The position numbers and the translations under genes are program-made. From Pseudomonadota bacterium (GTDB lineage Bacteria > Pseudomonadota > Gammaproteobacteria > Pseudomonadales > Azotimanducaceae), in assembly GCA_022571415.1 (NCBI GenBank), contig JACZXW010000016.1, positions 1 to 37,016 on the forward strand: a stretch of 37,016 bases of DNA, given 5' to 3'. How positions within the stretch are numbered: position 1 is the first letter of the stretch; each line of letters begins with the position of its first letter. The notes under the pieces were generated by a model, which ran no database searches, was not told the DNA's origin, and saw only the letters and a list, made by a program, of their open reading frames with translations. Shown piece after piece: positions 20,900-23,017 of this stretch.

Positions 20900-21181
20900 A
20901 TGGACTGGAAAGTATTCATAACAATATTTGCAGCAGTGTTTATTGCTGAATTAGGAGATAAAACACAAATAGCGACCATGCTTTTTGCCTCTGACAAGGA
21001 TATAAGTAAGTTGCTCGTGTTCGCTGCTGCCAGTGCTGCGTTAGTTGTTGCATCTGCAATCGGGGTCCTGGCCGGTAGCGTTTTGTCTGCCTATATCAGC
21101 GAAAAAATGCTGTCATACGTTGCGGGCACCGGATTTATGCTGATTGGCGCTTATACCCTGTACCAGGCCCAGACATCCTGA
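20900..21181 (+). CDS. half-size TMEM165/GDT1 (UPF0016) transporter subunit
   Basis: 93 residues with three membrane helices and the family motif AELGDKTQIATM at residues 16-27. UPF0016 proteins export Mn2+ or Ca2+; most are about 190-210 residues with two copies of the motif. This one carries a single copy, like the one-domain members that must pair as a dimer or with a second half. No second half lies nearby. The acidic and basic residues of the motif are intact. Start ATG 20900 follows GGGGTCAAAGA. The PfkB fusion gene begins 6 bases after its stop, so the two are likely cotranscribed. Confidence 0.8.
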   Translation: MDWKVFITIFAAVFIAELGDKTQIATMLFASDKDISKLLVFAAASAALVVASAIGVLAGSVLSAYISEKMLSYVAGTGFMLIGAYTLYQAQTS

Positions 21182-21187
21182 GCACCC

Positions 21188-23017
21188 ATGACAAATAAAG
21201 AAGCGAGAAAAAAAGCGGACGACGGTAGCCTGATGAATATTTCTGTTCTAATCATTGGTTCGCCTTCACTGGATCATCTGGTCGTTAACGGTGATTCGCA
21301 TCACGTAGCAGGTGGGGCCGGTCTTTACACTGCTTTGGCTGCCGCTCGCGCCGGTGCGATAGTGACGATTTTTGCACCACGACCGGAACCAATGCCGGAA
21401 CAACTGCTTTTTGTAGAGAGAGTCATGACATGGATAGGTCCGGTAATTGGACCTGAGGAGGTACCCAGGTTCCACATCATACAGAGCCCGACAGGCTCAC
21501 ACTATGAAAACGCTTTTTTTGGTGCCGAAGAAGATCTTGAACCTGCCCAGCTGCCCGACGATCTGGCCGCGTTTGACCTGATTCATGTCGTGCCCTTGGG
21601 TGGCGCTACGCAACAGCTGTCTTTTCTTCACGCCTGCAGGGCTCGAGGCGCAAAACTTTTGTCTGCGGGCACAGCGCACATGATCATTGAGGAAGATCCC
21701 GACAGGGTTGTGGCTGTCCGGGCGGTTTCTGATCTGTTTTTTATGAACCATGTCGAATCGGCGCTACTCGACAAATTACCAGGCAATAACAGGACGCCTC
21801 CTGGAAGGACAACCTTTATCACGCTGGGAGAGAATGGCGCTGTGATTCAACAGGGTGAGTATGAGACTCAGATTCACGCGCCTGAGACCGACAATCTGGA
21901 TCCGACAGGCGCCGGTGATACATTCTGCGGCGCGACACTCTCGGGTATCGCTGCCGGGCAGCATCCTGTCATGGCGGCCATCTCTGGATCACGTATGGCC
22001 TCTAGTATGATTACCGGGATCGGACCCTCGAACCTTGTAACTAAAATCCAGGATTCACCGCTGGATGATGATCATCTGCCGGTCAACCAGGCCCGGATAG
22101 AAAAAATTGCAGAACTGATTTCGACAGTCAAGGAAGCCGAACCGTTTCCATTTGTTGGAATTTCCCTGCCACGACAAAATCACCCCAGGGCCCTGGATTT
22201 CTTTTTTGTTACAACCCTGCAGCAGTTCAGTTTCTGGAGCCAAAAAAATAATCAATATGATCAACCGCTCATACAGACCATAGATGGACAGGTGCTAAAA
22301 GGTGCTTTTTATCTCTTTCATGCTTATCTGAAGCGATTGGAGCAGGATCCGGATTTTTTCTCCCCGGAGAGACAGGCATCGCAGATGCCTGGTGACATGT
22401 TGGAACTGTTTCGCGCCGATGACGGATCCGATGTGATGCCAGCCGTTCAGCTGCACCTGGAAATGGCACACAGTTATGGTAACACCATGCTCGCCCTGAA
22501 CTGGTCGCCGGAGTCCATTGTAAAGACCGCTATAGGTTCAAGGTATCCGCTGGCCACATTTCTAAAAATGCTGGATCAGGTCGGAGGTTACAGGGAGGAT
22601 CCGTTGCGCAAGAAGAGCGCCTTGCTGGCGCTCATTTTGGCGCAAAGACCGGAGAAGTTCTTTGCTTTTGGCGCCAATGAATCTCTGCCGCCAGTGGTTG
22701 ACTATCATTGCATGCGTGCCAGCCTGAGACTGGGCCTGGTGGATATCGTTGATGCGGATCTGAAAATCAAATTGGAAAACCGGCAGCTGATCAGCCCGGA
22801 AGATGAATGGCTGGTCCGACATGCGGTCTATACGGCGATGGAGCAGCTGCCGGGATTGTCAGGTCGCACTATGGGTGCTGTGGATTGGTTTTTCTTTATG
22901 TCGAGAAGCCGATGCCCGGAAATGACCGAACCCGATTGCGACGCCTGCATCGCCAATTCAGTTTGTGCACACAAAAAAAACCTGTTTCAGCCGGTAATTC
23001 GTACTTCTTTCTATTAG
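21188..23017 (+). CDS. PfkB-family kinase fused to a Qng1-like (DUF2419) glycosylase domain
   Basis: 609 residues. Residues 17-290 are a PfkB/ribokinase unit: GGAG at 42-45, a TLGENGAV strand and DPTGAGDTF at 238-246 with the catalytic base D244. Residues 320-609 match queuosine-5'-monophosphate N-glycosylase (Qng1) along their length: FFFVTTLQQFSFW at 338-350, a GDMLELFR-type helix, VVDY with D505 and DWFFF with D566, ending in RTSFY. These Asp positions correspond by eye to conserved Asp of the family. An inserted C576-x7-C584-x2-C587-x5-C593 resembles an HhH-GPD iron-sulfur loop. The fused layout suggests nucleoside phosphorylation and then glycosidic cleavage. ATG 21188 has no clear ribosome-binding site; ATG 21233 is an alternative that still begins before the kinase core. 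Confidence 0.8.
   Translation: MTNKEARKKADDGSLMNISVLIIGSPSLDHLVVNGDSHHVAGGAGLYTALAAARAGAIVTIFAPRPEPMPEQLLFVERVMTWIGPVIGPEEVPRFHIIQSPTGSHYENAFFGAEEDLEPAQLPDDLAAFDLIHVVPLGGATQQLSFLHACRARGAKLLSAGTAHMIIEEDPDRVVAVRAVSDLFFMNHVESALLDKLPGNNRTPPGRTTFITLGENGAVIQQGEYETQIHAPETDNLDPTGAGDTFCGATLSGIAAGQHPVMAAISGSRMASSMITGIGPSNLVTKIQDSPLDDDHLPVNQARIEKIAELISTVKEAEPFPFVGISLPRQNHPRALDFFFVTTLQQFSFWSQKNNQYDQPLIQTIDGQVLKGAFYLFHAYLKRLEQDPDFFSPERQASQMPGDMLELFRADDGSDVMPAVQLHLEMAHSYGNTMLALNWSPESIVKTAIGSRYPLATFLKMLDQVGGYREDPLRKKSALLALILAQRPEKFFAFGANESLPPVVDYHCMRASLRLGLVDIVDADLKIKLENRQLISPEDEWLVRHAVYTAMEQLPGLSGRTMGAVDWFFFMSRSRCPEMTEPDCDACIANSVCAHKKNLFQPVIRTSFY

Follow-up and report, generated by a model that had tools for sequence, protein, structure and literature searches.

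A reading frame for a kinase and a Qng1-like domain

The window is the whole 37,016-nucleotide stretch of DNA analyzed here. An uninterrupted frame of 609 codons occupies exactly positions 21188-23017 of its forward strand and encodes one 609-aa protein, as the original prediction had placed it. The opposite strand of the same interval contains many stops in the same register. Homology to the relatives starts at residues 14-20, and four of these proteins (L002-L005) have a methionine aligned with Met16; translation may therefore begin at the ATG at 21233 rather than at 21188. The features of the locus are listed by position, strand and content.

20900-21181 (+): GDT1-family gene, 93 aa, PF01169 match of 72.6 bits; ends 6 bases upstream of the fusion
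21188-23017 (+): gene for the kinase-Qng1 fusion protein (609 aa), which may start at ATG 21233 instead
21233-22042 (+): PfkB-family kinase domain (PF00294), about residues 16-285; nearest solved sequences are nucleoside kinases
21746-21757 (+): N187-x-x-E190; both named residues invariant in all 10 members of the family
21899-21919 (+): DPTGAGD, residues 238-244; invariant in 10 of 10 members
22151-23014 (+): Q_salvage/Qng1-like (DUF2419) domain, residues 322-609; PF10343 above cut-off, with Foldseek and VIA matches
22205-22237 (+): FVTTLQQFSFW, residues 340-350; matches FVTDTLNFSFW of human QNG1 in the alignment to 7ugk
22589-22612 (+): YREDPLRK, residues 468-475; K475 aligns with K199 of S. 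thermophilus Qng1
22700-22705 (+): D505-Y506; D505 aligns with D231 of S. thermophilus Qng1, both residues invariant
22880-22888 (+): V565-D566-W567; counterpart of VDW in the alignment with S. thermophilus Qng1, its first two residues invariant
22913-22966 (+): C576-x7-C584-x2-C587-x5-C593 loop; conserved in 10 of 10 members, proposed [4Fe-4S] site

The N-terminal half belongs to the PfkB family, as predicted. PF00294 matches with 53.5 bits against a cut-off of 25.8, with its best stretch at residues 179-282, and two motifs are invariant in the family: DPTGAGD (D238-D244), the anion-hole/catalytic-base motif of PfkB kinases with its GAGD, and the N187 and E190 of NxxE, the metal-site motif. 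An hmmsearch with the aligned kinase domain against the PDB found 3kd6 (E 5.8e-15) and then 2c49 (E 1e-13) as the best matches, which are titled nucleoside kinases and come from Chlorobium tepidum and Methanocaldococcus jannaschii. Seven solved sequences match at E up to 1e-8, and the other five are named ribokinase or sugar kinase. Among these five are 3ry7 and 3h49 (ribokinase), 4e3a (sugar kinase), and 3b1n, whose group also contains 3b1q, an entry titled as a nucleoside kinase with inosine. Ribokinases are close in fold too (Foldseek), and an NCBIfam scan of the fusion returned 18 families, almost all of them kinases of sugars or nucleosides and every one far below its cut-off. Judged by its nearest relatives, the kinase half likely, though not provenly, prefers a nucleoside over a sugar.

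The original prediction had the C-terminal half resemble Qng1/DUF2419 along almost its full length. A Pfam scan of the whole protein places PF10343 (Q_salvage) at residues 328-439 with 28.6 bits against a cut-off of 25. This match covers positions 3-112 of the 285-position profile in the window protein; in L031, the relative that diverges most, it extends over positions 4-238. When four full C-terminal halves, the window's among them, were scanned by themselves, they scored 30.6-40 bits. A profile of the C-terminal half finds human QNG1 (7ugk, E 8.6e-7) as its best PDB match, and Qng1 of S. thermophilus is not among its matches at E up to 10. A whole-protein phmmer search of the PDB returned no Qng1, human or S. 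thermophilus, at E up to 1. The last 139 residues align weakly with two Qng1 sequences in hhalign (probability 5.6%, E 0.0068), and identity to solved Qng1 is low, at 16-18%.

The likeness over nearly the full length was found by fold. An AlphaFold model of residues 301-609 has middling confidence (mean pLDDT 67.5, pTM 0.57) and matches Qng1 crystal structures best. Its top 11 Foldseek matches in the PDB are all Qng1 (E 2.9e-6 to 1.7e-5, TM about 0.5, rmsd 6.6-7.5), and VIA gives Z = 15.0-15.3 against Qng1 structures with an rmsd of 6.0-6.3 over 251-261 residues. VIA ranks AGOG and endonuclease III after these, at Z = 9.2. The predicted model supports the C-terminal half as a Qng1 relative over nearly its whole length.

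All the motifs named in the prediction are present, namely FVTTLQQFSFW, LFRADDG (407-413), D505-Y506, D566-W567 and RTSFY (605-609). Residues F340, T342-L344, Q346, F347, F349, W350, L407, F408, D411, G413, D505, Y506, D566, R605, T606 and Y609 are invariant across the ten family members, and position 567 is Trp in five of the ten. Within YREDPLRK, Y468 and D471-K475 are invariant in 10 of 10, E470 is kept in nine and R469 in seven; human QNG1 has YR before its lysine, and this YR is kept in 7 of the 10 fusion members. The PDB holds entries titled as K199C and D231N mutants of the queuine salvage enzyme DUF2419, the latter crystallized with queuosine-5'-monophosphate; passages of PMC11592518 give the organism as S. 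thermophilus. The mutated K199 and D231 mark two functional residues of Qng1. A MAFFT alignment places K475 and D505 of the fusion at these positions, and both are invariant in 10 of 10 members.

Distribution, ancestry and neighborhoods of the fusion

Nine further copies of the fusion, 46-61% identical to the window protein over both halves, occur in Neomarinimicrobiota and in two genomes labelled Flavobacteriales. A first genome scan found four relatives. L002 and L003, from two Neomarinimicrobiota MAGs, are 61% identical to the window protein; L004 and L005, from genomes labelled Flavobacteriales/Flavobacteriaceae, are 57-58% identical to it and 98% identical to each other. PF10343 was sought in 992 genomes of three phyla and matched 1 of 398 in the host's phylum (the host itself), 7 of 199 in that of L002 and 1 of 395 in that of L005. 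Four of these nine matches were in carriers known beforehand (the host, G000, and G058, G059 and G061) and five were new. All nine sit in open frames of 597-635 aa. The ten distinct members, window included, align over both halves with a mean column identity of 68%. The fusion is a real, conserved family in which two covalently linked domains are kept together across phyla.

The C-terminal half has no match in any of 57 relatives of the host, from genus to order, and 40 of these match the kinase part only. PF10343 is likewise absent from the 397 other genomes of the host's phylum. A midpoint-rooted tree of the family's ten proteins puts the window protein together with L002-L005 (support 100/99). 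This grouping and the absence from the host's relatives suggest that the host may have gained the fusion through transfer. Neither 72,556 plasmid records nor 50,697 phage records contained a match to the fusion. In viral contigs, searches with the protein and the C-terminal alignment yielded no confirmed fusion among the stretches with the exact pattern, which were the ones tested. PADLOC gave no match at E up to 0.01, and PHROGs gave one unnamed family that matches the kinase part only. A phage, plasmid or defense gene was rejected on the negative plasmid, phage, viral and PADLOC searches.

No neighboring gene is common to all carriers, and neighborhoods differ between lineages. L040, L041 and L042 have seven genes in common, of which the first is mutL in L041, and miaA is common to L041 and L042. 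Among 30 neighbor proteins scanned with Pfam (8 in the window, 22 in carriers), no known queuosine gene was found. Several individual neighbors were recorded. A 130-aa gene (L039:6487-6879) ends directly before the fusion start in the most divergent carrier and has a weak DUF6884 match below the cut-off; its matches in PADLOC and PHROGs are weak too. In two carriers the fusion is followed by a PF20603 'bacterial hydrolase' gene, at L041:9036-9988, where it lies behind a DUF1801 gene, and at L043:1973-2545. In the genome labelled Flavobacteriaceae, a gene for an Mrr-type restriction endonuclease (L005:4446-5360) is found upstream of the fusion.

Proposed function and weighing of alternatives

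Qng1 releases queuine, a vitamin-like base. It has the 5'-monophosphate as its primary substrate according to passages of PMC12301720 and PMC11592518, yet the pathway also accepts queuosine as the nucleoside, for which a kinase would be needed (PMC4425180, a review). The same review describes a kinase converting queuosine to the 5'-monophosphate as postulated, inferred from mammalian cell work and claimed, decades ago, in mammalian cell extracts. Queuosine phosphorylation is drawn with dashed arrows as 'possible' in Figure 1 of PMC11130926.

In the proposed mechanism, the N-terminal PfkB domain would use ATP to phosphorylate the 5'-OH of a ribonucleoside. The C-terminal Qng1-like domain would then hydrolyze the N-glycosidic bond of the resulting 5'-monophosphate to release the free base and ribose-5-phosphate. 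The protein very probably combines a kinase and a glycosidase that act in sequence on some nucleoside. The likeliest nucleoside would be queuosine itself or a 7-deazaguanosine very close to it, for example epoxyqueuosine, and we put the probability of a bifunctional nucleoside-processing enzyme with queuosine or a near derivative as substrate at about 0.5. To return to tRNA in carriers with a preQ1-type TGT, the base would first have to become preQ1; the purpose of the enzyme may instead be to recover ribose and dispose of the base.

TGT, QueA, QueC and transporter genes bear on the fate of the base. TGT and QueA were not found in the host assembly (completeness 93.91%), which breaks beside their expected locus. 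Host secD lies at base 95 of contig G000:C109, which begins 94 bases before the gene, and in the same-genus genome G004 yajC, tgt and queA lie on the corresponding side of secD. The contig break can explain the absence of both tgt and queA in the host. Absence of a host TGT was therefore set aside as evidence against salvage. In G006, a member of the same family that likewise gave no TGT match, secD is at position 178 of the contig; G002, a genome of the host's genus without TGT, has no full secD match. Contigs of two assemblies from one family (G000:C109 and G006:C95) thus both start just before secD, where tgt-queA is expected. The host has QueC and a QPTR-family transporter gene; the prediction had asked whether a TGT and a transporter gene occur elsewhere in the genome.

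The nine other carriers have TGT (9/9), QueA (8/9), QPTR (7/9) and full-length QueC (1/9), and the 16 non-carriers from the phylum of L002 have TGT (16), QueA (16), QPTR (9) and QueC (6); weak partial matches to QueC do not enter these counts, whether at E 1e-3 to 1e-8 or, as a second copy in three controls, near 1e-20. QueC was discarded as a marker of salvage dependence, with 1 of 9 carriers against 6 of 16 controls showing no clear difference. In each of the nine other carriers TGT has retained D-[EQV]-C and GGL[AS]VGE, the preQ1-type pocket, and the GG[LS][AS]G pocket of the queuine type, sought as a test of direct queuine salvage, is present in none of them. According to passages of a Bartonella paper, GG[LS][AS]G is the typical form in TGTs that use queuine, but queuine at elevated concentration is still accepted by a GGLAVG TGT (PMC11570991). 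With TGTs of the preQ1 type, queuine could be reused only after conversion to preQ1 or by a tolerant TGT, and would otherwise go unused. From their gene content the carriers look like preQ1 users, most of them perhaps supplied from an outside source, and direct re-use of queuine by them is doubtful.

A separate observation concerns the CxCxxC cysteines of TGT, presumably its zinc site. They are missing in 5 of the 9 other carriers (L059, L062, L067, L068 and L069, the TGT genes of G061, G060, G574, G058 and G059) and present in the first-listed TGT of all 16 non-carriers of the L002 phylum; the counts are not independent, as some carriers are close relatives.

The original prediction had asked whether the protein is a one-protein route from queuosine to queuine. 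It is partly supported, by the domains, the fold, the Lys/Asp pair, the kinship to nucleoside kinases and the retention of the fusion, with the activity and the queuosine substrate as predictions; its salvage part is weakened by the preQ1-type TGT (9/9) and QueA (8/9) of the carriers. The same gene content, which does not look like that of queuine users, is consistent with the same two-step chemistry on another modified or damaged nucleoside, in a catabolic or house-cleaning route like that of PsuK/PsuG. PsuKG is a precedent for such a protein, and the low identity to solved Qng1 and the extra four-cysteine loop point the same way. Several Qng1 features persist in the fusion, however, namely FVT..FSFW, the Lys/Asp pair, V-D and R-T..Y at the C terminus, and this retention would suggest a similar pocket. 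We regard another substrate as quite possible.

Queuosine or a near derivative as substrate leaves room for indirect salvage as a special case, in which queuine released by the fusion would be converted to preQ1 by a QueL-like step and used by an ordinary TGT. Eight of the nine other carriers lack full-length QueC yet have TGT (9/9), QueA (8/9) and QPTR (7/9); the majority may thus rely on a precursor from outside, and QueL provides such a route elsewhere according to passages of PMC11130926 and PMC11570991. Full-length QueC is also missing in 10 of the 16 non-carriers, however, and the window's host has QueC. Indirect salvage is rather unlikely on this balance.

The four-cysteine loop raises a different reading of the C-terminal half. 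E. coli Nth C187-x6-C194-x2-C197-x5-C203 aligns with the loop of the fusion and differs by one residue of spacing. The four Nth cysteines hold a [4Fe-4S] cluster. The pattern occurred in 0 of 20,000 shuffles of the fusion protein, having been picked after it was seen, and VDYH around D505 in the family resembles VDTH of Nth as judged by eye. The loop is missing from the solved Qng1 sequences of S. thermophilus and human. We propose from the cysteine spacing that this is a [4Fe-4S] loop of the endonuclease III type, with zinc as a possible occupant. The cysteine spacing of the loop, one residue off that of Nth, and AGOG and endonuclease III as the next best folds, would also fit a nucleic-acid glycosylase of the endonuclease III type with an iron-sulfur cluster, the kinase acting separately. 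The far higher Z of the Qng1 structures, the PF10343 match above its cut-off and the lack of any DNA-glycosylase Pfam family at E up to 10 in the six fragments scanned make this reading improbable.

The weakest alternative, an assembly or binning artefact in which the gene or its contig is foreign to the host, would account for the absence of the fusion from the 57 relatives and 397 other genomes of the phylum but is highly improbable, because the frame is intact and its product is 46-61% identical to nine other fusions, and because GC (0.515), third-position GC (0.53) and codon usage lie within the range of 17 other contig genes, unlike the carriers' regions (0.31-0.43 GC). For the same compositional reasons the fusion looks settled in the host genome.

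The preferred reading, a bifunctional enzyme for queuosine or a near derivative, bears on a gap in the literature. 'Queuosine kinase' does not occur in the PMC literature searched, and no gene named for such a kinase was found there. The pair 'queuosine' and 'nucleoside kinase' returned only a review of antitumor and antiviral nucleosides, and 'queuosine' with 'PfkB' returned nothing on such a fusion by title among the matches listed. 'Qng1' with kinase and fusion gave nothing on the subject by title or start of abstract, although key Qng1 papers outside that search may mention it. For an iron-sulfur Qng1, none of the 8 papers listed of 2,353 matches in the same literature mentions Qng1. As a conserved protein, the fusion of kinase and Qng1 offers a direct candidate for the queuosine kinase, and the question can be tested with one purified protein. 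If the loop holds a cluster, it would bear on the relation of a metabolite glycosidase to DNA-repair glycosylases. The full combination, a bacterial queuosine kinase in one polypeptide with an iron-sulfur Qng1 that links the Qng1 family to endonuclease III-type glycosylases, is offered tentatively.

Comparison with known systems

The closest system is Qng1/QNG1 (DUF2419, PF10343), the queuosine-5'-monophosphate N-glycosidase. The window protein has in common with it the fold, the Lys/Asp pair, FVT..FSFW, V-D and the C-terminal R-T..Y. It differs in being fused behind a kinase, in the four-cysteine insertion before the C terminus and in an identity of 16-18% to solved members. The HhH-GPD DNA glycosylases endonuclease III and MutY are a distant fold match (Z about 7-9) that shares the C-x6/7-C-x2-C-x5-C loop, whereas the window protein has Qng1-type sequence features and no DNA-glycosylase Pfam family. 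QueK/QueL of Clostridioides difficile is alike in outcome, since the fusion would likewise free queuine from queuosine. QueK belongs to an unrelated family and hydrolyzes the nucleoside itself (passages of PMC11130926 and PMC11570991).

The nearest parallel in logic is pseudouridine breakdown. Passages of PMC9247573 describe PsuK as making pseudouridine 5'-phosphate and PsuG as cleaving it, and place both in one polypeptide in metazoa, amoebozoa and fungi. In PsuK/PsuG and PsuKG, as would be the case for the fusion, a PfkB kinase generates a 5'-nucleotide and a linked glycosidase converts it to base and ribose-5-phosphate (PMC9247573, same passages). The glycosidase of the window protein is a Qng1 relative by Pfam, and its kinase is N-terminal, where that of PsuKG is C-terminal.
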